Origin: Phoenix dactylifera
Taxonomy: Eukaryota > Streptophyta > Magnoliopsida > Arecales > Arecaceae
Direction: 5' to 3'
Assembly (NCBI RefSeq): GCF_009389715.1
Contig: NC_052407.1
Span: 2,027,001-2,091,000, forward strand
DNA length: 64,000 nucleotides
Made by a program: the position numbers and the translations under genes. Below the pieces are notes generated by a model. It was not told where the DNA came from. It worked only from the letters and a program-made list of their open reading frames with translations, and did not search any database. This document shows positions 2,151 to 53,975 of the stretch, in pieces (positions within the stretch are counted from its first letter, which is position 1; each line of letters opens with the position of its first letter).

Positions 2151-3429
2151 ATCCGACTTATGGCCCATGTACACTAGAGGACACTGCAACACAGACCTAA
2201 CTGCATGGGTTGACCATGAACTAGTTATGGCATTTGTGATTGGCTTCATGGTACTTGTAATTAAATTTGAATAAATTTAGATTCTTAACCTGATGAGAAT
2301 GCTAGAACTTAAACGGAAGGAGTATGCGGAGGATCCGTTCGGACATATATTTAGCTCCACATGGGCAATGCATTTGATAGATCTTGTTTACTTATATAAG
2401 GATGCATTTCTGTATATTAATTCACTCTCTATATTTAGTGCATTTGATTTGCTATTTGCTTGGATGTATCCATGTCTGATAGATACTGCAGGTAAAAGCA
2501 AATAGTGCATCTTGCACTTGCCTAGCAGGTGGGTAACGAGGTTTTCATGACCTTTTAGCTGGTAAGCACTAGGCATGACTATAGCAAGTGCAGATCATAT
2601 GCAATTCTCTCTGTCAAGAGTATGAGCAATTGAGTCCAGCAAGTCTACAGGACCATACCCAGGCAGTACGCTTGGTGTCTACTGGGCATGATATATGAAC
2701 AATTCTTTTATTGTTGATCTGTCAGTATGCAGCTTGTATCTGTATGGCCTTTCTAGCTGATCTTGCTCTTCATTAAGAGTATCGTTTGAGAGGATTCAAT
2801 CATGATATGATATCCTGGTGGGTAATTCAACATGATCTTCTTTAGAGCTTCCAAGTCACCATAATCTCGCCTCAATCCACAACCCCAACTTGTTTCTGTG
2901 CACAAATTTCTACTGTAGCCCAGACTAGTTTAGCGAAGTCATGTGGCTATGTGGTTTTAATTGTTCCAACGATCATCCTTCATATCATAGCACGGCACTC
3001 AAATGAGAGACACAATCAACCTTCTACGATCTACTGAGGAGGCAAGTATAGTGCAGTTGGCCCTAAAATCTCTCAATAGGTTATAACCAAGTGTGCTTAA
3101 TGGGTGAGTCATTGATTTCCTTCACATAATTTTTACTCTAGACATCATTCCTTGGAAATTGAAAACATGAAAAAAAATTATTGCAACTAATTCAATCATT
3201 AATCTTGTCTTCTCTTAGACCAAACGAAAAATGTTTTAAATTTTCTTCACATTGTCCATGTTTGTGTCACTTCAACGGCTTTTTTCTGCATCCGGGCAAG
3301 CGTGCAAATTTCTCCTTGCTTCACATTTTCTGCTTCAATCTTTAAAATTTAATACCCTCCAAATATCTGAAACTAGCCGAATCCAAGTTACATATATATT
3401 TTTAAAAAAAGTTGGTGGAGTGGAACTCT
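2151..3429. other. Intergenic, nothing recognised
   Basis: This is the spacer between copies 1 and 2 of the direct repeat. The open frames are short and show no family resemblance. Confidence 0.5.
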
Positions 3430-4526
3430 GTGTACTAAAATGAGATTGTGATGGAGCTCAAAACAAGAGTATAATTGAAGTACTAAGTATTGCCAAACCA
3501 GGAAAACTATACCAGCAATCCATGCCTTTTAAACAAAAGAAACCTCAATCACTAGCCTAAATTTAGGAAGATACAAATAAGCATAAATTTCCACTTTAAG
3601 TAGTCTAAGCAAAATAAATAACTTTTGGTCGGGATATGAATTCTTGTGTTCCAGAGGGTATATAAAGAGATTTAAGTTTTTAAATATTATAAATTTCACT
3701 TGAAAAAATATCTCGGCCATCATGGAGCATTCTTATTCATCCTTTTGGGCTAACACCAAATTGCACTGCAAACAAATAGGCATTGAGAAAATTTTCACCA
3801 ACTGATCGAGTTTTTAGAATGAGATTTCTACATTATTAATCATTTCAGCATTTATATGGCTTCTTCATTGTCCTAGGCTCCTATCTACTCTCTTAAACTT
3901 TGTATAAAGCTAGTTGATAGTGATATTAAAATATATTCTTGCACAAGAAAAACTAACTAATTGAGGAGACATTTTCTTTTCTGTGAATTAAGTAAACTTG
4001 CGTGCTTGATTTTACAACTTAATTCAGTAGATTCTTTACTCATATGCCTCGAATAAGTTTTCCAATTTATTTCGATTTTTGATACTTTATATTCCCACCC
4101 AAACTAATTTAATTCTGGGTCAGAATATTATTGGATTCATATTTGACCCTAACTAAAGAATCTATGATCCATACCCATCCTAGATGGAGTTGGGTTCGGT
4201 CGGGCCTTGGGTTGGGTCGAACTCTTAGGTTGGGTCAACTTTTGTCATCTTTACTAACCATCTATGCATCTCTAAGTACCCTTTGGGTCTTTAATGCGAC
4301 ATTCGCCTCACATTATCTTCATATATGTATTCCAATATTCAACTTTAGGATAAGCTTATTAGTATTTCATATATAACTCAAGGAGAAAGATAGGAGCACA
4401 TTGAAGGATTGTTACCTTGATTTGGTATGCATTAGAGAAAAATTTATTTAAAGCCCTTATCTTTCTGATGGCAGGCTGATGTTCCTTGAATATCGGATAT
4501 CTTCGCATATCAAATTCAACAAGCTA
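3430..4526. repeat. Direct repeat copy 2 (JRL-associated)
   Basis: This matches 1-1077 nearly end to end with small indels. It stops at CAAATTCAACAAGCTAAG, just before the point where copies 1 and 3 continue into a jacalin half-domain. The lectin fragment is therefore missing from this copy. Confidence 0.8.
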
Positions 4527-6430: not shown

Positions 6431-6457
6431 GCATGCACGTCCGTGGCCCTATAAATA
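6431..6457 (+). promoter_or_regulatory. Putative core promoter with RY motif
   Basis: TATAAATA lies at 6450-6457, about 75 bp upstream of the first ATG of the lectin copy. A GCATGCAC motif just upstream (6431) matches the RY element (CATGCA) bound by B3 factors of the ABI3/FUS3 class. RY boxes are common in seed-expressed genes. The seed link is inference. Confidence 0.5.
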
Positions 6458-11739: not shown

Positions 11740-12640
11740 TGCATTCACCTTGGGCCCCCAAATGCATTGGCCTACTTTTACTGCCAATATCGCCTGATCC
11801 CCATCTCCCTCGTTACGCATTCACCGATCCACGAGAACAGTGAGCCACAAGCCATCTCCGACGACTGATCTCGCCCCGCCCGGAGTAGATGATATACAAC
11901 TGCCGATGGAACCTGGAATCATTGATGCATGTAACGGGATATCTCCAATGATCGAGGCTCCAATCTCGGGCTCCAACTCCGGGATCAATATCTACGTTTT
12001 TGTGTGGTGGTTCCTCCATCCTATGCAGGTGGAATACCGCTGCCGACAGAACCTGGAATCGTTCCGGATACGCCCAGTAGCATATCACCGAGGGTCAGGG
12101 CTCTGATTACAGCCAAGGTCATGTCTGCTGAAGGGAATCTACCGAAAGGAATGCCGACAAGTTTGTTTCAATTTCTTTTTAGTTTTTCTATGTACTGTAG
12201 CTCTACATGGCAGAATGCTATAGTTCCGATCTATAATTGAGCTGGTAGACCGGCTCTAGGATATAACTTCCACGTCCTAAAAGTAGCACCGTACAATATG
12301 ATTCAAAATATAGTTGAACAAACTACAAGCAAGAAAATAAAGTACGGTCATACTCTTTTTTAAGAGAAAAAATTTTATATTTGAAACTTGAGAGGTACTT
12401 TGGTAGAGCCAATCAGTCTTGGCTCAGCTAGTTGGCATCTCGTGCCGTTTGAAAGAGACCAAAGTTGGAGTTAAGGCTGGCGGAAAGCTCCGTATCTATA
12501 CCCATTCATCGATAGATAGTGGATGCAGCCTAGATGAGAACATGGTGGGATTGATAAGACACTAGATTATCTTATTCTCCCACACCACGATTCAAGGGTC
12601 GCGAAAAAGCAGCCCCAAGCTCGGGTTACCGAAACAAATG
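11740..12640. other. Intergenic, with a short internal duplication
   Basis: Two related stretches of about 70 bp occur at about 11882-11960 and 12025-12095. Both contain CTGCCGA.(A/G)GAACCTGGAATC and then ATATC.CC. They could be a decayed Pro/Glu-rich coding repeat, but no gene model holds. The rest is unremarkable. Confidence 0.4.
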
Positions 12641-12705
12641 TGCCCCGAGAGAAACAGCAATTCAAGCCACCCGCAACTAATCACCATCTCCATTCAATCC
12701 TCTCC

Positions 12706-12717
12706 AAAAATAAATAC
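12706..12717 (+). promoter_or_regulatory. Putative TATA-like box
   Basis: AAAAATAAATACC lies about 90 bp upstream of the ATG of the secreted lectin relic. The spacing suits a plant core promoter. Confidence 0.35.
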
Positions 12718-12800
12718 CTCCACATCCCATCCATCCAGGTTACTGGCTTCAAGAGAGGGACTTCGGATCCCGGAAAATACACCTGGAGTCCCAGCTTCAA

Positions 12801-14294
12801 ATGATGACGGAGCTGCCGAAGTTATGGTTCAAGCACCTAGTCTTGGTTGGTGTAGTTCTTGCATGTATTCTTTGGGCACAGGCCGACAGAATTGTCTATA
12901 ATAAGGTTGGCTAAGTTTGGCATAATCAATCATAAATTAATCAAGATAAAATTAGGTAAGGCTAACTAAATTTGGTACAATCAATTACAAATTAATCAAG
13001 CTCTTAATCAATTAAATGATTTTAGCAGTCAAGATGGAAAAGTAGAGAGGGACCGGAGGAGGCGGGGAGTGGGACATGGGAACTGCCGCCAACCTGCGGG
13101 ATATCAGAATTCTTGCCAAGGCCACCATTGATGCTATTCAAATTACGTATGAGAACAACGGGAAGATTGCATGGACTCCCCGGTATGGGGGCAACGGCGG
13201 GGACTCCAATGATGTAACTACTGCAACTTTGTCTTCTTCTTCTTCTCTATCCCTGTTTACCATTGGAGAATGTTTTCTCTCTCCCAAAAGCTATAAATTA
13301 GGAGTTTTCAGGGAAGCACCAGAGAGATATTGACCCCAAATTAGGAGACCAAAAGCCAAGTTTGCATCCACCCGCCTCCAAATACTTTATTTTTGATGCA
13401 AGGAAGGCAGAACTCATCACCCAAGACTTGTACCCAGACTTTCTGGTAAGCAGGCAGAGGCGTGTGATCACCAGGGGGCACATTCTTCTTTGTTAAACGC
13501 TGTATGCACCTTCATGGAATCTGTTTTTAGATATTTTTCCAAGAAAAATGGGAAAAGAAGTCAGAACCAATCAACTGTGATTTCATATCGGATTTTAACG
13601 AAGTTCCAGGGCTCATAAATAAAAATTTAACACGTGAAAAGCTATGAGATTCCTTTCAACTCTCTTAGAAATTTTATTTGCCCATGCAAACTGATAGCCA
13701 ATTTCCCTAACAATGTCATTAGAGAACTCCATAGATCCAGATTCCACAATCTCAAGTAGAGTTTAGATAGGAATTTCATAGAACCAGGAACATGAGGAGT
13801 AACAAAGTGTTGCAAAATTATGCAACGTATGGATGTGTTTATTTCAAAAAAATCTCACTATGCAATAGCATGGCTGCACTCATTAAGTATATATCTTCCA
13901 AAAAAAAAAATGCCAATGTGGTTTTCCATGTAATAATTTGATATAAACGTTTGTGGTAAAATGGCTGGTTCAATGTTAATAATAGAGATGATTAATTTCA
14001 ATATTCTGAGTTTTATTTTGATTTAATTAATTGATATTTTGTAGGTTACCTTCGAGGAAGGGGAATTCCTTACCTATATATGCGGTTATTATGGTCCCTT
14101 CCGGGACATGCCAAACATGATAAGATCACATACTTTCGTCACCAGCACCAATAGGACATATGGACCGTATGGCGAGCAGCAGGGAACCACATTCTCCAAT
14201 CTCCATTCCACTGGCAGCCGGTAAATTTTTGGGCTTCTTTGGACGCTCACGAAACCTCCTTGATGCAATTGGGGTTTACTTGGGGCCGAGTTAG
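12801..14294 (+). pseudogene. Secreted-type jacalin-related lectin, broken
   Basis: Three exons are readable: 12801-12905, 13029-13213 and 14045-14294, with GT-AG introns in phase 0. Exon 1 gives 35 residues shaped like a signal peptide: a basic start, hydrophobic HLVLVGVVLACILWAQA, then DRIVYN. Exons 2 and 3 encode the two halves of one jacalin domain. In exon 2 the GPWGG motif is lost and the frame shifts near 13055-13065; the remainder (ANLRDIRIL...DAIQITYENNGKIAWTP) is in a different frame from the splice acceptor. In exon 3 a 7-bp tandem duplication near 14193-14207 shifts the frame and creates an early stop at 14221. The frame after it still runs to the normal TAG. The GXXXD motif reads RNLLD. 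Most JRLs lack signal peptides, so this was a distinct subtype. Confidence 0.7.
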
Positions 14295-38064: not shown

Positions 38065-38069
38065 GCATA

Positions 38070-38815
38070 TGTTGCTGGTGGTCCAAACCGAGAACGATTG
38101 GCACAGCGGTGTGAACGGGGTTCCGTTTGAGTTGCCTTGGTTGGTATTGATTGCGCTCCACCTTCCACCGGGAAACCTGCAAGCAAGCCTCGCACCACCA
38201 CTGGGGTAGTGGGGGCCCTCCGACGATCAAGTCAGAGGAGATTGGAGGAGAAGGAGAGATAATAGTAGCAAGTAAGAGAATGCACTGGAAGTTCTTGCTT
38301 ACCTCCCCCCCTTCTCCCCCCAGCCGCATATATACCAGGCTGGGGGGTCCTTCTGGGGGGTTGGTCATCGTGTGGCACGATGGAGTTGCCACTGACATGG
38401 CCGTTACAGGGCGTCGTGGAGCAGCGCCGGATACGCCCGTTGCAGGGAGTAGTGGAGCAGAGGGTCGCGGCGTGCTTCAGGGGAACAGCCTGTCGTTGTC
38501 GAGAGATTGCCGACTCGGGGTCGGATTGCTGGATCAAGGGGCAGCCGACTCAGGGTCGGGCTGCGAAGCCGAAGATATCCGACTCGAGGTCGGACTGCTG
38601 GATCAAGGGGCAGCCGACTCGGGGTCGGGCTGCGAAGCCGAAGATATCCGACTCGGGGTCGGGTTACTGGATCAAGGGGCAGCCGACTCGGGGTCGGGCT
38701 GCGAAGCCGAAGATATCCGACTCGGAATCGGGTTACTGGATCAAGGGGCAGCTGTAGTCTTCTTGGGCGCGCGTGCCGGTCACGTGGGGCATGGTGGCTG
38801 AGTTTCTCCATAACA
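38070..38815 (-). repeat. 3' LTR of the gypsy element
   Basis: Begins TGTTGC and ends TAACA on the plus strand. It contains about 3.3 copies of a 69-bp tandem unit (GGATCAAGGGGCAGCCGACT core) at about 38510-38750. This unit is open in several frames on both strands, so the repeated open frames here are not genes. Confidence 0.92.
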
Positions 38816-38830
38816 GTAGCCCCCCACTTC
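38816..38830 (-). promoter_or_regulatory. Polypurine tract
   Basis: On the minus strand GAAGTGGGGGGCTAC directly abuts the 3' LTR. It is the expected primer for plus-strand DNA synthesis. Confidence 0.7.
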
Positions 38831-39073
38831 CGAGCCTGGAACCAGAAGGGGAACGGGTGAAGGAAGTGATGCTTCGAGATTGCCGCCATCCCTCGGAGAG
38901 GCGCGCGCGCTTCGAGCTCCCCGCCTTCTTTATGGCGTATGGCGGTTGTTGCTGACCTGGCAGTCTGAGGATTCGGCGGACATCCCTCCTTAATGGCGTC
39001 GATTCGCCTTTGGGGCGCGAGCGACCCTTCGGCAGCCAGGCGTCCTCACCATGGCGTCACCCACCTTTCCGCC

Positions 39074-39080
39074 TATTTAA
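39074..39080 (+). promoter_or_regulatory. Putative TATA box of the antisense gene
   Basis: TATTTAA inside GCCTATTTAACCGG lies about 265 bp upstream of the ATG at 39343, on the strand opposite to gag-pol. A promoter separate from the LTR is expected for an antisense gene. Confidence 0.4.
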
Positions 39081-39342
39081 CCGGAGGCCCTCCTCCGTCC
39101 GCCTCTCTCTTTACAGACATCTCCGGGTTTCTCCTTTGCGCTGTCATCATTGCCGTCGGACTGTTCGCTTGCTCCTCCTTTGACGCTCTCGGAGCCGTTC
39201 TTCCTTTTCTTCCGGTGAGTTGCCCCATTCTTCAATTTAAGGCTCTCCATACTTTCTCCTTTTGTATTAGGGTACTCCAGTCGTTCCGGTCCTTTCCCCC
39301 TTCTTGACCCCGTCCTGACCGTAGATTCACTGGCCATTAGGG

Positions 39343-41710
39343 ATGGGCGAAGTGAGAGCAGACCGCATTAAGTCGGAGCTGGTCGCTGAAGACCTAGATA
39401 GGTTCGTGGCTCGATACCACCTTCCCGAGGCCTGCAATGATACGCTCCCGGGGCCGGAGGAGAGGATGTCCTATCCTCCTCCAGGGAAGGTCGCCGTCAA
39501 TGAGGGCATTCTTCAGGCCGGGTTCCGCTTTCTCCCCTCGGACTTAGTCGTTCAGGTGCTTCGGGGTTTAAGAGTGACGCCGACGCAACTGGTGCCGAAC
39601 TCATGGCGCGCCCTGACGGCCTTTCAGGTTCTCTGCCGCATGCACGAGGTTCCCGCCACCCTGAATGTCTTTTGGGAATGCTACGGCCTGAGCGGCCACC
39701 CCCAGGATAAAGGGTGGTGGTGCTTTGCGGCGCGGCGAGGGTGCGGCCTCGTCAAGGAGGCTCCTACCTCCATTCACGGCTGGAAGGGGCGCTTCTTTTT
39801 CGTTGACGCAGATCCCTCTTGGGGAATCAGGGCAACCTGGGAGACGCCGATGAAGTCCCCGATTGGCCTATCGAGGTTGTCGAGGGAGGAATCCGATTGA
39901 GTCGCCGTCTTGAAGGAGTTGGTTGCCGAGGGCCGGCTCCCCCCGGTGGCTCGCCTTATTTCCGAGGATACCTTGGTGAACGTCGGTCTGAGCTCGGTCC
40001 CCGCTGACCGTGAGCCCGCCACCATTTCTTTTTAGCTCTTTTCTCCTCTTTCGTCTCGTTCTTTCCTTCAGTTTCTCAACCTCCGACCACCTCGTCCTTT
40101 TTGCAGAGATCGACGACGTCATGCGGTCGGACAAGGCAACGGCTGTTGGTAGGACGTCCCTACTGGAAGCAGTCCGGAGGAAGAAACGAGCTCCTCCGAG
40201 CGGGGCCCCACCGGCGAAGAAGTCCCGCCGGCAGGCGACTCCGACGCCGACAGACGGGTCCGGACCCACCGATCAGGGGGACGCCGCGGGCGCGGACCGG
40301 GAGTTGACGCTGTATCAGCCCTCCGATGCCGAGACTACCGTTTCTCCGGAGGCATCACCCGGGCGCGCCCGAGATGAACGGGTCGGACGTGATCGGTCCC
40401 CAGCCCAGCCTTCGACTCGGTCGGCTCCGGACGATACGAGGAGGGACGCGCCGAGGCCCCGGCCGAGCGGGACCCTGTCAATTCCAAGGGCGGTCCCCGC
40501 CCCGAGCATGGTCAGCATGACTCTTCCCCAAGCGATGGGTAAGGGTAAGGCTGCAGAACCACCGTCCGACTCCGGGGAGAAGTCGGGGTCGGCCTTCACT
40601 TTCGCCGGCGCCTGAAACCTCATCGAGACGGTGCTGCTGGAGAAGGACCGCAGGCAGGTCCGGGAGATGAGGGTCCCTGACGTTGGGGCTGCCAGCTGCG
40701 TCTGTCTCATGTCGGTGAGTACTCTTTTGGTCACTTTCATCATTTATAGGCTCTGTTGATCCCCGCCTGACGCCCTCGTTTTTCCTATCTCTTAGCTCGC
40801 CCAGTACATGATCCGCCTGGAGGAGTGCTACGAGGAACAGGCGAGGCTTCTGGCGAGGGCCGAGAGCCAATTGAAGGCAGTAGAGGAGGGAGGTCAGGCT
40901 GCGGCGGGGAGGACGACCAGGGACCTCGAGACGAGGCTCCAGGTGGCCGAAGAGCGGGCACTCGGCTTCGCCACCCTCGAGAAGCAACTGTTGGAGGCTC
41001 AGGAGCAACTCAAGGTTGCCTCGGGTCTCGAGGGCGAGATCAAGAAGGCGGAGGAGCGGGCCGAGAAGCAGTCCCGGAAGGCTGCCGACTACCGGGAGAG
41101 GTGGGAGAAGGCCCAGCGATCAGCCGACAACGCCCGCAACCGAACCCGGTCTCTTGAAGCCAAGCTGGGCGAATTGGAGTCGGCCTTGGAGAAGTCCCGC
41201 GCGAGCGACCAGGAGCTTCATTCGCGCCTGGAGGAGGCTGAGGCTGCTCGCATTGCTGCCGAGGCGAAGCACAAGGAGGCTCAGGCTGATCTGCTGAGGG
41301 TCTCCTCCGAGGCGGACGACCGGATTGTGGCGAAGGTCGTGGAGGCGAAGGCTCAGATTAGGGAGCGGGCAGAGGCGGCGCTGGCCGAGAAGAGTGCGGA
41401 GATCGGGCGTCAGGCGGTACAGGCTTATCGTCAGTCCGCCGAGTTCACCCGTGATATGTCGGAGGCGGTACAGGCCTATCGTCAGTCTGACAAGTTCGTC
41501 CGTGACATGTCGGACGCGGGGTCCGACTCCTTTGTCTTAGGCTTCGAGGAAGGCCTGGCAAGGGTGTCGGCTAAGTACCCCGAAATTGACCTGAGTGGGA
41601 TCTCCCTTCTCGACTCCCCTCCTGCGCCATTACCTGCTGCTTCTCCAACCGTCTCCCTACCCCCTGCGGACGTGCCCAACGTTCCCGACCCGGGGGTTCC
41701 TCCAAGCTGA
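39343..41710 (+). pseudogene. Antisense extra gene of the retrotransposon
   Basis: Three exons can be read: 39343-40009, 40107-40714 and 40796-41710, with donors GTGAGC and GTGAGT and acceptors TTTTTGCAG and ATCTCTTAG in matching phases, for about 730 codons. Exon 1 resembles the plant putative gypsy-type transposon domain (Pfam Transposase_28): ..FRFLPSDLVVQVLRG...LTAFQVLCR....WGWW-like WWCF. Exon 2 is basic and Pro/Ser-rich. Exon 3 is a long coiled coil (about residues 430-640) rich in EEA and Q heptads, ending in a Pro-rich tail. TGA codons at 39898-39900 and 40613-40615 interrupt the frame, which continues sensibly after each. The role of such proteins is not known. It runs opposite to gag-pol. 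Confidence 0.75.
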
Positions 41711-41877
41711 CCTTCTGTATTTTTGTTCTTTTCTTTGTGTGTTGGCGTTTTGCCAAGTTGTATGGGTCTCGGCCCTGAAACAATGAAAGTTAATGCAAAT
41801 AGAGTTTCTTCATTTCACTTTCGTCCTTCTTCTTTTTAACTCTTGGTAGCGTCTCGCTGACTCCCGACTCTTGAAAT

Positions 41878-42567
41878 TCTTCTGGCGCTAGGCCAGGTAT
41901 CTGAGGGTTAGGCCTCAGGGAATTCTTCCGGCGCTAAGCCAGGCATCCGAGGGTTAGGCCTCAGGAGCTTCTTCCGGCGCTAAGCCAGGCATCCGAGGGT
42001 TAGGCCTCAGGAAATTTTTCTGGCGCTAGGCCAGGCATCCGAGGGTTAGGCCTCAGGAACTTCTTCCGGCGCTAAGCCAGGCATCCGAGGGTTAGGCCTC
42101 AGGAACTTCTTCCGGCGCTAAGCCAGGCATCCGAGGGTTAGACCTCAGGAACTTCTTCCGGCGCTAAGCCAGGCATCCGAGGGTTAGGCCTGAGAAAATT
42201 CTTCCGGCGCTAAGCCAGGCATCCGAGGGTTAGGCCTGAGGAAATTCTTCCGGCACTAAGCCAGGCATCCGAGGGTTAGGCCTCAGGAAATTCTTCCGGC
42301 GCTAAGCCAGGCATCCGAGGGTTAGGCCTCAGGAAATTCTTCCGGCGCTAAGCCAGGCATCCGAGGGTTAGGCCTCAGGAAATTCTTCCGGCACTAAGCC
42401 AGGCATCCGAGGGTTAGGCCTCAGGAAATTCTTCCGGCGCTAAGCCAGGCATCCGAGGGTTAGGCCTCAGGAAATTCTTCCGGCGCTAAGCCAGGCATCC
42501 GAGGGTTAGGCCTCAGAAAATTCTTCCGGCACTAAGCCAGGCATCCGAGGGTTAGGCCTCAGGAAAT
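41878..42567. repeat. Tandem array, 46-bp unit, 15 copies
   Basis: Unit core: CTTCCGGCGCTAAGCCAGGC plus ATCCGAGGGTTAGGCCTCAG. Copies 1 to 4 vary more; later ones are nearly identical. The array lies just downstream of the antisense gene and may act as its 3' region. It runs straight into the 121-bp array. Confidence 0.93.
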
Positions 42568-44033
42568 TCCGCTCGTTGGGCGGCCAAGGCTGGCGCAAGC
42601 CGAGGCGACCGATCGGGGCTTCAGGCTAGTCTGCTCCCGGAATGATCATCGGGTTTAGCCTGGCATCCGAGGGCCGAGCCTCGGGAGATTCCGCTCGTTG
42701 GTCGGCCAAGGCTGGCGCAAGCCGAGGCGACCGGTCGGGGCTTCAGGCTAGTCTGCTCCCGGGATGATCATCGGGTTAGCCTGGCATCCGAGGCCGAGCC
42801 TCGGAAAATTCCGCTCGTTGGTCGGCCAAGGCTGGCGCAACCCGAGCGACCGGTCGGGGGCTTCAGGCTAGTCTGCTCCGGGAATGATCATCGGCGTTAG
42901 CCTGGCATCTGAGGGTTGCAGCCTCGAGAAAATTCCGCTCGTTGGTCGGCCAAGGCTGGCGCAAGCCGAGGCGACCGGTCGGCTTCAGGCTAGTCTGCTC
43001 CCGGGATGATCATCGGGTTAGCCTGGCATCCGAGGGCCGAGCCTCGGGAAATTCCGCTCGTTGGTCGGCCAAGGCTGGCGCAAGCCGAGGCAACCGGTCG
43101 GGGCTTCAGGCTAGTCTGCTCCCGGGATGATCATCGGGTTAGCCTGGCATCCGAGGGCCGAGCCTCGGGAGATTCCGCTCGTTGGTCGGCCAAGGCTGGC
43201 GCAAGCCGAGGCGACCGGTCGGGGCTTCAGGCTAGTCTGCTCCCGAGATGATCATCGGGTTAGCCTGGCATCCGAGGGCCGAGCCTCGGGAAATTCCGCT
43301 CGTTGGTCGGCCAAGGCTGGCGCAAGCCGAGGCGACCGGTCGGGGCTTCAGGCTAGTCTGCTCCCGGGATGATCATCGGGTTAGCCTGGCATCCGAGGGC
43401 CGAGCCTCGGGAGATTCCGCTCGTTGGTCGGCCAAGGCTGGCGCAAGCCGAGGCGACCGGTCGGGGCTTCAGGCTAGTCTGCTCCCGGGATGATCATCGG
43501 GTTAGCCTGGCATCCGAGGGCCGAGCCTCGGAAAATTCCGCTCGTTGGTCGGCCAAGGCTGGCGCAAGCCGAGGCGACCGGTCGGGGCTTCAGGCTAGTC
43601 TGCTCCCGGGATGATCATCGGGTTAGCCTGGCATCCGAGGGCCGAGCCTCGGGAGATTCCGCTCGTTGGTCGGCCAAGGCTGGCGCAAGCCGAGGCGACC
43701 GGTCGGGGCTTCAGGCTAGTCTGCTCCCGGGATGATCATCGGGTTAGCCTGGCATCCGAGGGCCGAGCCTCGGAAAATTCCGCTCGTTGGTCGGCCAAGG
43801 CTGGCGCAAGCCGAGGCGACCGGTCGGGGCTTCAGGCTAGTCTGCTCCCGGGATGATCATCGGGTTAGCCTGGCATCCGAGGGCCGAGCCTCGGGAGATT
43901 CCGCTCGTTGGTCGGCCAAGGCTGGCGCAAGCCGAGGCGACCGGTCGGGGCTTCAGGCTAGTCTGCTCCCGAGATGATCATCGGGTTAGCCTGGCATCCG
44001 AGGGCCGAGCCTCGGAAAATTCCGCTCGCTGGT
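42568..44033. repeat. Tandem array, 121-bp unit, about 12 copies
   Basis: Unit landmarks: CCGCTCGTTGGTCGGCCAAG, GGCGCAAGCCGAGGCGACCG, GATGATCATCGGGTTAGCC and GCATCCGAGGGCCGAGCCTC. The last part of each unit is a relative of the 46-bp unit next door. The last eight units alternate between GGGAGATT and GGAAAATT (or GGGAAATT) at the unit end, a 242-bp higher-order period. The unit is not a multiple of three, so the 81-residue open frames spaced every 121 bp are artefacts. Confidence 0.93.
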
Positions 44034-44640
44034 CGTGCGCCTGTCGCTTGCCGCCCGACGGGATTTCTCCATGGCCAGCTGCGATCGTGTTTCTCCTCCT
44101 CTCCAAGCGTCGCCTGGGGAACACCAGATGGGCATTAAATGCTAATTAAGGGGTTACCTGGGAAATCGGATCGCCAGTTGCTGCTTGCGAGGAGTGTCAG
44201 TTAAGCGGCCGCGATACGCGCGTTCTTCGAGGCGGATGCGGCCTGGGGCGCGAGCGGAGATACGTGGACCTAGGGGTACAGGCCACCCGGAGTGTCCTGC
44301 ACAAAGAATGCGATTAAGGAGAATGACGCTTAGGAAATCGCGGGAAGATACGCCTCGAGAGCCGGATCGGCTCCGGATTCAATGCGCCCGCATTTATTGG
44401 AGCCACCCGCATCGGAACGACCGGGGGGCCGCAGTTTGGCTATAAATATAGGTGCAGGTGCGATGGAGCCTGCCAAGCTGGAGCTGTTCAGGTTGCCATG
44501 GATCGTGGGCCTCCTCTCCGGCGCATGGTTGAGAGACCCCTACCGAAGGAACGGGAGGCGCGCCCTTCGCGACTTCCGCCAACTAGCCGTTTCATCTGGG
44601 ATCAACAAGGAGGTTCTCCCCGGCGGAACTCCGCTCTAGG
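44034..44640 (+). other. Joint region between arrays and reverse transcriptase
   Basis: This replaces the RNase H and integrase part. A strong TATAAATATA box (44441-44450) points along the plus strand, followed by a short open frame from 44464 that ends at 44639. The layout looks like the end of another LTR or a promoter fragment joined to the truncated reverse transcriptase at about 44640. Confidence 0.45.
44441..44450 (+). promoter_or_regulatory. TATA box in the joint region
   Basis: TATAAATATA follows a GC-rich stretch, as in plant core promoters. It would drive transcription antisense to gag-pol, through the reverse transcriptase remnant. No use is proven. Confidence 0.4.
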
Positions 44641-45368
44641 CGTTTCAACACCTTGAAGAAAGGTTGGCAGCGTTCGGCCGATTTTGCCACGAATCGTCCG
44701 AGCGCGGCGACCCTCCCAGCGAGCTCCTGAACCTCCTTCACTTTGGTCGGAGGGGACATATCTTGGATGGCCTTGATTTTGTCCGGGTTGGCTTCGATCC
44801 CCCGCTGGTTGACAATGAAACCGAGGAACCTCCCGGCCGAAGCGCCAAAGGCGCACTTCGCTGGGTTCAGCTTCATGTGAAACTTCTGCAAGGTGGCGAA
44901 AGTCTCCTCCAGATCCGCGATGTGCTGGTCTGCATGGCGGCTCTTCACCAGCATATCGTCCACGTACACCTCCATGTTCCGGCCGATTTGCTCTTTGAAG
45001 ATTTTGTTGACGAGGCGCTGGTAAGTGGCGCCAGCATTCTTCAGACCGAAGGGCATTACCTTGTAACAGTACAGCCCCCGGTCTGTTATAAAGGCAGTTT
45101 TCTCCTCGTCCTGTGGAGCCATCATTATCTGGTTGTAGCCGGAGAAGGCGTCCATGAAAGACAGCAGCTGATATCCGGAAGTCGCGTCGACCAGTTGGTC
45201 TATCCGCGGAAGCGGAAAGCTATCCTTGGGGCATGCCTTGTTCAGGTCGGTGTAGTCGACGCACATCCTCCACTTTCCGCTCGCCTTCCGGACAAGTACG
45301 ACATTTGCCAGCCATTCGGGGTAGCTGACCTCCCTTATGAATCCTGCCTCCATGAGTTTGTCTACCTC
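44592..45368 (-). pseudogene. Reverse transcriptase remnant
   Basis: About 235 residues of a Ty3/gypsy reverse transcriptase: AGFIREV.YP.WLANVVLV.K, ..DYTDLNKACPKDSFPLP, FMDAFSGYNQI, the catalytic YVDDM, and LGF.V..RGIEANPDK. Homology ends at FFKVLKR near 44640, where foreign sequence supplies a chance stop at 44592. It is in the same frame as gag-protease, separated from it only by a TAG at 45369-45371. RNase H and integrase are missing, so the enzyme is dead. Confidence 0.9.
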
Positions 45369-47876
45369 CTAGTCGACCACTCGGATCCGATCCGGGGCAC
45401 AGTGTCTCTTCTTCTGTTTTACCGGTCGGTGGGTCGGGTCGACGTTGAGGGCGTGAGAAATGACCTCCGGGTCGATCCCAGGTACATCGGCCGCCGACCA
45501 GGCAAACACATCGACATTGGCTCGGAGGAATTCCACCAACCGGGCCCGAGCTCCCAGGTCGAGATTGGCGCCGACCCGGATCGTCCTGTCCGGGCGACCT
45601 TCCTCGAGGGGAACTTCGATCACACCCTCGGCCGGCTCCCCGTGCCGCAAGGCCACCTCGTCTCTGGCGTCGAGGGACTCGACGCTTAAGGCTTCTATGG
45701 GCTTCTTCCCTTTGAGAGTTGCTAGGAAACATTGCCTTGCGGTCGGTTGGTCACCTCGGACCTCTCCAATCCCGGCCGCCGTGGGGAACCGCATGAGCAA
45801 GTGGTACGTAGAGACCACCGCGCGAAGGACGTTCAGTCCGGGTCGTCCGAGGATAGCGTTGTAGGCCGAGGGAACACGGACGACCAAGAACCCGAGCCGC
45901 ACCGTGGCTTCTGCGGGTGCAACGCCCGCAGTCACAGGCAGCTCAACGACACCTTCGGCCGAGACAGCGTCACCAGTGAATCCTATGAGGGGGGTGGATG
46001 TTTTGTGCAACAATTGTCTGGACAAGCTCATCTTTTGGAAGGCCTCGTAAAACAAAATATCAGCTGAGCTTCCACTATCCACAAGAACACGCCTTACATC
46101 ATAGTTTGCCATAGTGAGGGAGATCACCATGGCGTCATCGTGGGGGGTCTGAACCCCCTTTACATCTTCATCACAAAAAGTGATTACATTACCGACCCTC
46201 TGCCTCTTTGCGACGGCTGCCCCTGATGCTTCAGTCGAGCCCCCTGCGTTCCTCTCGGGCCGGGGGCAGCCCCCAGTGATAGTATGGATCACGCCCGCGA
46301 CGGGTCGATTCTGCTCCCGAGGCTCCGGGGGGGCAGGGTCGGCCGGACGCGAGTCTGCGGGGGGACGTCGGTCGTTCACATATCGACCGAGACGCCCTCG
46401 GCGGATGAGAGCCTCGATCTCGTCCCGAAGCTGGAAGCAGTCTTCGGTGTCGTGGCCGTGGTCCCGGTGGTACTCACAGTACGCCCGAGAGGGCCTCCTC
46501 CCAGGGATCTTCTTCATCTGTCTCGGGACCGGGAGGTCCTCCCGCCCCTTGATTTCCATGAGGATCTGGGCCCGGGGAGTCAGGAGAGGAGTGTACCGGT
46601 TGAAACGTCGGGGCGGAGAACGAGGGCGTAGGGCGCCGTGGTTCCTCGCCGGCGATGGGCTTCTGCGCCGACGTTGAGGCGTCGGGCTCCTCCTCTGGCG
46701 TGCCTCTTTTCGCCTTTTCTTCCCGAGCTTTGGAGGGATCTCGGCGGTCTCCTTGCTCCGGTGGGCGGCCGCCTCCTCGGCGTCCGCATACTGTTTCGCC
46801 CGGGACAACAGTTCCGGGAAGCTCCGCGGCAGGCGTTTGTCCAGGGAGAAGGTGAGTCTGCCCTTTCGGAAGCCACGCTTCAGGGCTGAAAGAGCCACTT
46901 CCTGGCTCAGGTTCCGGACTTCCAGCGTAGCCTTGTTGAAGCGGGTAAGATAATCCCGCAAGCTTTCTCCCTCGTTTTGCCGGACATCAAAGAGGGAGTC
47001 GGAGACCAGTCCCCGCCGGCTACTGACGGCGAAATGGGTGATGAAGAGGCGAGTAAACTGGTCGAAGGACTGGATTGAGTTAGCCTCCAAGCCGGCGAAC
47101 CACGCCCTTGCCGGGCCACGGAGGGTTGCCGGGAAGGCCTTGCAGAGGAGAGGATCTGATGCTCCGTGGAGGAGCATAAGGGTCCTGAAACTCTCGACGT
47201 GATCCCGCGGGTCCGCCGCCCCGTCATAGGGCTCGATCGCCGGCATTTTAAACCCCGGCGGATTCGGGGTCCGCAGGATCCTCGAGGCAAGCGCCGGCTG
47301 GGAGGAGATCTCCAAGTCGGCGAAGGGATCTTTGGAGTGGCCCTTCAGGACCTGGAGTTGTCGGTGGAGATCGTCCACCCGCCGGTCCAGGGAGCGCGAC
47401 CGATGGGTGGGAGACAAGGAGCACCGAGAGGGGGACCGACTGGAGCGCGGGTTCCTTGAGGACTGGGGGGTCTGGGAACGCGCCCGGGCCCGCCTCTCGT
47501 ACCCCGCGCAGCTCCGATGGAAAGGTCCCGGCAGAATGGACCGTGCTCGAGAATCTTCCTCGCGCCGGCTCTCCTCCCCATGGGAGAGGAAGGAGCGCGG
47601 GTTGAGGAGGACAGGTGAGCGCTCAGGGAGCAGCGGCTCCTGGGCCCGCTGCGGCGCCCGAGACATCACACCCTGCAGGTTCTGCACTGCCTCCGCGAGG
47701 GTGCGAACCTGCTGGGCTAACTGGTCGAACTGAGCGGCTTCGACCATCTGAATGGGGGGTGGAACGGTGGAGTGTTGCTGAGAATGTGTTGGAGACGCAG
47801 CGGCCTCCCGGCCGGAGGCGCGAGAGGCCCCGCGACCGGAGGCATTGGAAGCTCCACGACCACCTCGCCGTGCCAT
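45369..47876 (-). CDS. Gag-protease polyprotein of the gypsy element
   Basis: 835 residues from ATG 47876 (MARRGGRG..), chosen because the upstream open frame is only LTR and primer site. The N-terminal 200 residues are Arg/Ser-rich. The Retrotrans_gag domain is at about 215-370 (..AFPATLRGPARAWFAGL.., ..ESLRDYLTRFNKATL..). A zinc-knuckle-like CEYHRDHGHDTEDC is at 467-480. The aspartic protease is at about 585-720 with the active site LVDSGSSADIL. The last 45 residues begin the polymerase (PGIDPEVISHALNV). It ends at a TAG after which the same frame continues into reverse transcriptase. It forms particles and cleaves the polyprotein in intact relatives. Confidence 0.88.
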   Translation of the reverse strand: MARRGGRGASNASGRGASRASGREAAASPTHSQQHSTVPPPIQMVEAAQFDQLAQQVRTLAEAVQNLQGVMSRAPQRAQEPLLPERSPVLLNPRSFLSHGEESRREEDSRARSILPGPFHRSCAGYERRARARSQTPQSSRNPRSSRSPSRCSLSPTHRSRSLDRRVDDLHRQLQVLKGHSKDPFADLEISSQPALASRILRTPNPPGFKMPAIEPYDGAADPRDHVESFRTLMLLHGASDPLLCKAFPATLRGPARAWFAGLEANSIQSFDQFTRLFITHFAVSSRRGLVSDSLFDVRQNEGESLRDYLTRFNKATLEVRNLSQEVALSALKRGFRKGRLTFSLDKRLPRSFPELLSRAKQYADAEEAAAHRSKETAEIPPKLGKKRRKEARQRRSPTPQRRRRSPSPARNHGALRPRSPPRRFNRYTPLLTPRAQILMEIKGREDLPVPRQMKKIPGRRPSRAYCEYHRDHGHDTEDCFQLRDEIEALIRRGRLGRYVNDRRPPADSRPADPAPPEPREQNRPVAGVIHTITGGCPRPERNAGGSTEASGAAVAKRQRVGNVITFCDEDVKGVQTPHDDAMVISLTMANYDVRRVLVDSGSSADILFYEAFQKMSLSRQLLHKTSTPLIGFTGDAVSAEGVVELPVTAGVAPAEATVRLGFLVVRVPSAYNAILGRPGLNVLRAVVSTYHLLMRFPTAAGIGEVRGDQPTARQCFLATLKGKKPIEALSVESLDARDEVALRHGEPAEGVIEVPLEEGRPDRTIRVGANLDLGARARLVEFLRANVDVFAWSAADVPGIDPEVISHALNVDPTHRPVKQKKRHCAPDRIRVVD

Positions 47877-47898
47877 TACGATCGCTCTGAGATTCGGC

Positions 47899-47916
47899 CC
47901 TTCCTCTAGCGCCAAC
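47899..47916 (-). promoter_or_regulatory. Candidate primer-binding site
   Basis: Immediately inside the 5' LTR, the minus strand reads GTTGGCGCTAGAGGAAGG. TGGCGC starts are usual for primer sites of this lineage; I cannot name the tRNA with certainty. Confidence 0.5.
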
Positions 47917-48661
47917 TGTTGCTGGTGGTCCAAACCGAGAACGATTGGCACAGCGGTGTGAACGGGGTTCCATTTGAGTTGCCTTGGTTGGTGTTGATTG
48001 CGCTCCACCTTCCACCGGAAAACCTGCAAGCAAGCCTCACACCACCACTGGGGTAGTGGGGGCCCTCCGACGATCAAGTCAGAGGAGATTGGAGGAGAAG
48101 GAGAGATAATAGTAGCAAGTAAGAGAATGCACTGGAAGTTCTTGCTTACCCCCCCTTCTCCCCCCAGCCGCATATATACCAGGCTGGGGGGTCCTTCTGG
48201 GGGGTTGGTCATCGTGTGGCACGATGGAGTTGCCACTGACATGGCCGTTACAGGGCGTCGTGGAGCAGCGCCGGATACGCCCGTTGCAGGGAGTAGTGGA
48301 GCAGAGGGTCGCGGCGTGCTTCAGGGGAACAGCCTGTCGTTGTCGAGAGATTGCCGACTCGGGGTCGGATTGCTGGATCAAGGGGCAGCCGACTCAGGGT
48401 CGGGCTGCGAAGCCGAAGATATCCGACTCGGGGTCGGACTGCTGGATCAAGGGGCAGCCGACTCGGGGTCGGGCTGCGAAGCCGAAGATATCCGACTCGG
48501 GGTCGGGTTACTGGATCAAGGGGCAGCCGACTCGGGTCGGGCTGCGAAGCCGAAGATATCCGACGTCTCGGGGTCGGGTTACTGGATCAAGGGGCAGCTG
48601 TAGTCTTCTTGGGCGCGCGTGCCGGTCACGTGGGGCATGGTGGCTGAGTTCCCCCGTAACA
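47917..48661 (-). repeat. 5' LTR of the gypsy element
   Basis: Nearly identical to 38070-38815, including the 69-bp tandem units. The last units differ from the other LTR by small indels. The open frame of gag extends back through it without a stop, but this is not coding. Confidence 0.92.
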
Positions 48662-48666
48662 GCATA

Positions 48667-49830: not shown

Positions 49831-50484
49831 TTTGCTAAAGTCAAATTTTAATTAAATTTTTAAGTTGAGTGCTGCCATGACATTTTTGCTAGGGAGAAAT
49901 AAATGGAGAATTAGGAGGGTGGATCAGGTTAGCTCTACCCTCCCACCCTTCCCTCACGCACAGAATCTTGGGCTTAACCTAACACCACCTCTCGCTCTCG
50001 CTCTCTCTCTCTCCCGGGGTCCCCGCACTCGTGCATGTCACCGGAAACACAAAACTCCACGTGAACCCCAGCCCTTATCCCAGCTTCGCAAGGGCCCCAC
50101 CAATGGACCCCGTCCAGCTAATGATTTTTCCACCATTGGACTTACATGTGGCTCACGGGTCCCACTCTCCTTCCGATGAGATTCTGCCGCGTGTTAAACG
50201 AGAGCGAGAGATGGCAATGGCGGAGAGAGGAGAGTTAGCAAGCAGAGAGAGAGGAGAGTGAAAGAAAGAAGGAAACAGATCGAGTCAAATCTTTATTGTT
50301 TTCCTTTTTTTTATCCAAACGCCACCCGGCGCTGCAGTAGCTGAGGACGAATCTTAGCATGTTGCGTAGGGGGAGATCTTTAAAGCGCGATCTCGGCTTA
50401 CGGTAGCAATCCCCGCGAGTTCCCACGCAGTGCCACGATTTTGTTCCCCTCCCTCCTCACCTTTTTCTTCCTTCCCTTCTGTCC
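49831..50484. other. Upstream region of the cytokinin oxidase gene
   Basis: Contains CTCTCT and GAGAGA runs near 49990 and 50230. No gene supported; regulatory sites cannot be assigned. Confidence 0.5.
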
Positions 50485-50499
50485 TATATATACTATAAA
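50485..50499 (+). promoter_or_regulatory. Putative TATA box of CKX
   Basis: TATATATACTATAAA lies about 160 bp upstream of the ATG and is followed by a CT-rich leader, as is usual for plant 5' UTRs. Confidence 0.55.
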
Positions 50500-50655
50500 C
50501 CCCATATCTTCCTCCTCCCGCTCTCAAGCTCTCCTATCTCTCTCCTGTCCTTCTCTGTTTTCCTTCCTTTCTCGGTGCAGGCGCACGTTAGCGTCACTCG
50601 TAGCACGAACACAAACCAACCGCCCCTTAGGCTTGTTAACGGGAGTTTTGAGGAG

Positions 50656-53975
<3,320 letters not shown>

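Follow-up and report, generated by a model that had tools for sequence, protein, structure and literature searches.

Loss of RNase H and integrase between short direct repeats in a Retand-type retrotransposon of Phoenix dactylifera, and decay of its predicted spliced antisense Transposase_28 gene

Elements of the Retand lineage, such as Retand from Silene, RIRE2 from rice and Grande from maize, are described as carrying an antisense Transposase_28 (TRP28) gene between pol and the 3' long terminal repeat (LTR), with tandem arrays in the same region (PMC11963269, PMC7264820). The antisense open reading frame (ORF) is reported for 23% of Retand elements in one source (PMC6317226) and for 97% of Retand clusters, all but 2 of 63, in another, where tandem arrays are given for about half of the clusters and 10 of the 63 are classed as defective (PMC11963269). 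A nuclear or regulatory role has been suggested in print for the TRP28 protein, and a review that treats the antisense ORFs of Grande, RIRE2 and Retand urges a look at spliced antisense transcripts (PMC7264820). Retand elements with antisense TRP28 and without RNase H (RH) and integrase (INT) are already known: clusters 3b (43 copies) and 2 (55 copies) from Alopecurus myosuroides hold GAG, aspartic protease (AP) and TRP28 and lack RH and INT, according to Table 1 of the source, whose text gives one such cluster (PMC11963269). The element analysed here lies at 38070–48661 of a 64,000-nucleotide stretch of contig NC_052407.1 from the date palm Phoenix dactylifera (the window, whose positions are used below) and is, to judge from its sequence, a defective member of a large Ty3/gypsy family of the Retand type (Tat).

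Like the described members of the lineage, the element has an antisense Transposase_28 gene and tandem arrays between pol and the 3' LTR, and its LTR and internal sizes fall within the range given for them; likewise, its full-length relatives contain an additional RNase H-like domain. This domain (RVT_3), which is placed between RH and INT in the full relative L012, as is also reported for Ogre (PMC6317226), is deleted in the window copy. The region from pol to the 3' LTR (38816–44640, 5,825 bp) is inside the Retand range of 2,933–6,566 bp, whereas the repeat unit of 121 bp in one array is longer than the 8–100 bp stated for Retand (PMC11963269). A Tat-type anatomy, as proposed in a preliminary description made from the letters of the window, is therefore borne out by the domain order in L012, the antisense Transposase_28 and the region sizes, with the reverse transcriptase (RT) of the window element assigned by its RVT_1 profile match alone. 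Alopecurus clusters 3b and 2 are similar in being recent, in holding GAG and AP without RH and INT, and in carrying antisense TRP28. However, those clusters are amplified and have identical LTRs (PMC11963269), whereas the deletion in the window element occurs at two places in the host genome and its antisense frame is broken.

The reading favoured here, with a probability of roughly 0.6, is that a full-length parent copy lost RH and INT by the joining of two 9-bp direct repeats, likely during the reverse-transcription cycle that made the window copy, and that the TRP28 gene decayed later. The deletion would have arisen by template switching in that cycle, with the enzymes in the particle supplied by a full-length RNA; an alternative timing would place it slightly before that cycle, or after insertion. 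The antisense gene, which appears to be selected in the family, would have decayed in the window copy since then.

The deletion is best seen in the gag-pol frame, which follows the orientation of the element on the minus strand, where Pfam matches to gag (PF03732) and RT (PF00078) were obtained. A gag-protease (gag-PR) frame open over 835 codons (45372–47876, minus strand) runs into a premature in-frame stop at codon 836 (45369–45371, minus strand), a site that encodes an amino acid in all 86 database relatives covering it, and is followed by the RT part of pol (44641–45368, minus strand). The latter is truncated by the deletion: similarity to RT relatives bearing RNase H ends at base 44640 in all nine tested, which confirms the proposed loss of half of pol. 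In four full copies (L011, L012, L013 and L015), taken from the host assembly (773,078,369 bp in 2,391 contigs, with the window located on C16), the stretch absent from the window measures 2,781, 2,782, 2,691 and 2,691 bp, respectively. The 9-bp sequence GGCGTTTCA is found at both ends of this stretch in all four, so that the window holds a clean deletion between direct repeats, with the single remaining repeat at 44639–44647 (no strand). The RT-to-integrase frame of L012 is open over 1,054 residues, in the order RVT_1, RT_RNaseH, RVT_3, Integrase_H2C2 and rve, and its gag-PR carries a stop; for L011, L013 and L015, the longest open runs, measured in the missing stretch only, comprise 663, 743 and 568 codons.

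Next to the deletion lies a spacer without known domain (44036–44640, minus strand), where none of the six ORFs tested gave a Pfam match. It is found downstream of the integrase in the full copies, and its interpretation as captured foreign DNA was rejected, as it holds the same place in all four. A plus-strand TATA motif, CTATAAATA, is present in the spacer at 44440–44448, 0.2 kb off the deletion junction, and is identical in the second deleted copy described below. None of the 120 RT matches listed was a database protein with the tail that the window has past the deletion, a result that is uninformative beside the genome search, and collections of viral, genome-contig and plasmid sequences yielded no useful relatives.

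In the host genome, a 19-base pattern of the deletion junction, with up to two mismatches allowed, was found at two places, both exact, which correspond to the window and to contig C1911 (control with the reversed pattern 6), against 1,527 (control 3) and 1,425 places (control 6) for the corresponding full junctions. With a 401-base query, 40 places were scored out of 3,285 candidates, of which 2 span the junction and 38 end inside the repeat. Moreover, 31 stretches were fetched at places chosen from 40 scored LTR matches (of 2,299 candidates). The end of RT was reached in 14, and all 14 run on into RH/INT sequence, L021 having one more internal gap; the remaining 17 comprise 12 with no family sequence, 2 with array only, and 3 (L024, L029 and L040) with other deletions or breaks. 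In L049 (C34), L021, L024 and L040, pol shows breaks or deletions that end at other positions. The preliminary description had called for a search for a family without integrase and held that full pol in all other copies would speak for a one-off deletion; the counts come close to the latter outcome, and an amplified non-autonomous family, with many insertions sharing the same defect, was not found (two junction places versus 1,527 full ones). Dasheng and RIRE2 in rice form a non-autonomous/autonomous pair in which, as here, a defective LTR element stands beside a full Retand-type family, although Dasheng has been amplified and its coding content differs from that of the window element.

The perfect target site duplication (TSD) and near-identical LTRs attributed to the element are both present. 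It is bounded by GCATA at 38065–38069 and 48662–48666 (no strand), a length of 5 bp being usual in plant LTR elements. The 3' LTR (38070–38815, minus strand, 746 bp, with internal 69-bp tandem repeats) and the 5' LTR (47917–48661, minus strand, 745 bp) align with 732 matches, 10 mismatches (10/742 sites, all transitions) and 7 gap columns, giving a Kimura two-parameter (K2P) distance of 0.0137. Under LTR clock rates of 1.3e-8 or 6.5e-9 per site and year, the insertion would be about 0.5 or 1.05 million years old, respectively. Two LTR subtypes, set apart by a 72-bp block, occur in the family, and copies differ in how many 68/69-bp units they have; two family LTR matches in the same direction lie 751 bp apart at C225:129989–131069. 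The interval from the spacer to the antisense gene contains an array of 15.2 copies of a 46-bp unit (41873–42569, no strand) and another of 12.4 copies of the 121-bp unit (42535–44035, no strand), whose units can be aligned with each other across 34 bases.

The second deleted copy, on C1911, has LTRs at 3053–3799 and 12156–12904 with 6 differences over 747 sites, and its TSD is GGTTT. Since it has its own TSD and does not match the 1-kb flanks of the window element, it represents an independent insertion. It also contains an 18-base deletion in RT and gag-PR stops at codons 172 and 437. Against the favoured reading, the finding of one base-exact junction in two insertions, each with its own TSD and a recent LTR pair, would be explained more simply by one deletion giving rise to a non-autonomous lineage, copied in trans at least twice, than by two deletions. 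The two copies share three exclusive gag alleles and fall together in the gag phylogeny with weak support (47/85; 44% of bootstrap trees); the ratio of nonsynonymous to synonymous changes (dN/dS) in gag-PR is 0.276 between them, above the 0.120 and 0.131 obtained in two pairs of full copies, as after an unconstrained spell; and the three stops in the window copy are a mild excess over the approximately one expected since insertion. The Alopecurus clusters mentioned above provide a precedent for such a lineage (PMC11963269).

A lineage mobilised in trans, which is close to the recent trans mobilisation of a deletion derivative put forward in the preliminary description, is nevertheless judged a possible but less probable account. 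The second independent insertion speaks for that proposal, while LTR subtype and trees show no clear grouping of the two copies. The 72-bp LTR block is absent from the window and present in C1911 and in all four other copies aligned, and the window LTR has one 68/69-bp repeat more than that of C1911. A 30-base pattern of the window-type LTR had 1,109 occurrences when one mismatch was allowed (control 0), and nine of ten exact same-contig pairs are spaced 11.5–12.4 kb apart, like full-length copies as judged by spacing alone, the tenth being the window itself. In the antisense-gene tree, the two copies form no clade (25% of bootstrap trees) and share no exclusive allele, and C1911 has as many or more exclusive gag-PR alleles in common with other copies (6 with C79, 4 with C59 and 3 with C12) as with the window. 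In addition, the 9-bp repeat makes a recurrent deletion plausible.

Private changes bear on the history of both copies. The window element has 10 in gag-PR and 13 in its antisense gene, numbers lower than or close to the 17.2 and 11.1 expected since insertion, so that they give no sign of a prolonged earlier existence as a defective lineage. In C1911 (L054, L043 and L055), by contrast, the 27 and 28 private changes compare with expectations of 10.2 and 6.6, and interior changes reach about three to four times the prediction from LTR divergence; because of this excess, C1911 was probably copied from an old, already diverged template. That the private changes of the window fit post-insertion time only would also agree with a deletion that arose in the already inserted element, through illegitimate recombination of the two 9-bp repeats on the chromosome, the deleted form never having been mobile. 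Deletions of this kind typically involve short direct repeats, which counts in favour of this course of events. This scenario is regarded as unlikely: a second locus with the same deletion needs another independent event, and no evidence favours a chromosomal deletion over the error in reverse transcription assumed in the favoured reading.

On the opposite strand, three exons, at 39343–40009, 40107–40714 and 40796–41710 (plus strand), are predicted to be spliced through GT..AG introns of 97 nt (40010–40106) and 81 nt (40715–40795) into a frame of 730 codons; exons 1 and 2 are in different frames, so joining them needs splicing. Together with a TATA-like TATTTAA at 39074–39080 (plus strand), a candidate promoter, this agrees with the three-exon gene with a TATA box described previously. 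Its preservation, however, does not hold, as exon 1 contains a stop at codon 186 (39898) and exon 2 another at codon 392 (40613). With these and the stop at gag-pol codon 836, neither frame is intact in the window copy. A reading of an antisense stop as an altered tryptophan codon was rejected, since the relatives did not agree. A possible extra intron with a GTGAGT donor was noticed by eye in the 5' untranslated part (39215–39324), and the predicted structure of exon 1 (with three relatives) has a mean predicted local distance difference test (pLDDT) score of 35.1. The word "intron" is absent from the main texts of PMC11963269 and PMC7264820 and no closer literature report was found; older RIRE2 and Grande papers lie outside this comparison, and no priority is claimed for the introns.

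The G+C content of the region (about 60%) could by itself favour long open frames, but a chance origin of the gene is very improbable. Exon 1 matches Transposase_28 (PF04195, E 9.9e-10), database relatives are found at 87–91% for exon 1 and 88–94% for exon 3 (P0124 and P0125), and a 300-codon open frame appeared in none of 1000 randomised versions of exon 3 (mononucleotide shuffling). Further evidence comes from ten other copies, picked as LTR pairs or by a spacer identical over 208 bases. In the three that are fully covered (C12, C59 and C8), which possess RH/INT, the antisense frame is open to its normal end and indels are confined to introns, including a 14-nt deletion of intron 1 in C59 and C8. 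Four partly covered copies (487–700 codons) have neither stops nor exon indels, C31 has exon indels, and the gene was not found within the stretches fetched for C79 and C34. The splice dinucleotides GT/AG are kept in all eight copies covering them and in both deleted copies, so that the two introns predicted earlier are supported by the comparison. Gag-PR carries stops in C12 and C59 despite their open antisense gene, and none in C8. The antisense-gene dN/dS is 0.225–0.408 in four pairs of C12, C8, C59 and C89. Based on the open frames, intron-only indels and low dN/dS among these copies, the predicted gene is real and under selection in the family, and has decayed in both deleted copies: that of C1911 has neither window stop, but has lost a single exon base and contains a stop codon at position 616, and no disabling change is common to the two.

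Other copies have lost the antisense gene altogether. Copy C1a (L029, L014, L092 and L093), with LTRs at C1:10140685–10141433 and 10148637–10149385 that differ at 4 of 749 sites and a TSD of CTATC, holds gag and an enlarged 121-bp array, and lacks RT, RH, INT and the antisense gene. Its junctions join the spacer at 44296 to gag at 46097 and, in window-equivalent positions, 38990 to 41824. The spacer-to-gag junction occurs at six places, five of them exact (control 0). Among these, C1124 has its own TSD (CTTAT); C10 has a different right flank and both junctions in common with C1a; and C547, with two mismatches, has its own TSD (CTCCT) and still holds antisense-gene sequence with indels. For C1b, which has an additional break at 39045, and C225, the 5' LTR was not found in the stretch fetched. 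The junction 38990|41824 was detected at 99 places (50 + 49, up to two mismatches; control 0), three of which, C1a, C10 and C8:6953563, were looked into; three places on C11 follow one another at 7.5-kb intervals and could be tandem duplicates. At C8:6953563, where the 5' LTR end was not found, this junction is followed by a complete RNase H–integrase stretch at 97.9%.

Elsewhere in the window, exons of a cytokinin dehydrogenase (PF01565 and PF09265) lie at 50407–53975, from about 2 kb beside the insertion, and the element may affect this gene. Several jacalin-like lectin exons (PF01419) are found at 6455–28055. A direct repeat of about 1.1 kb with 88% identity is formed by 2–1076 and 3432–4525, with more partial copies at 9.4–10.2 kb.

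The opposite of what was first proposed for the window element has spread in the genome, namely a junction by which the antisense gene is lost, at 99 places. Since a structure without the gene reached many places, comparison of the copies suggests that it is not required in cis. A spliced TRP28 gene of 729 codons that the family keeps through purifying selection, yet that single copies can do without in cis, would encode a trans-acting accessory factor, a proposal that is put forward tentatively. The window element itself represents ordinary decay in an abundant family, and the wider question is the function of TRP28 in Retand elements. For this question, the date palm genome offers conserved antisense genes with introns, copies without pol and the 99 gene-removal junctions, through which roles in cis and in trans may be separable.

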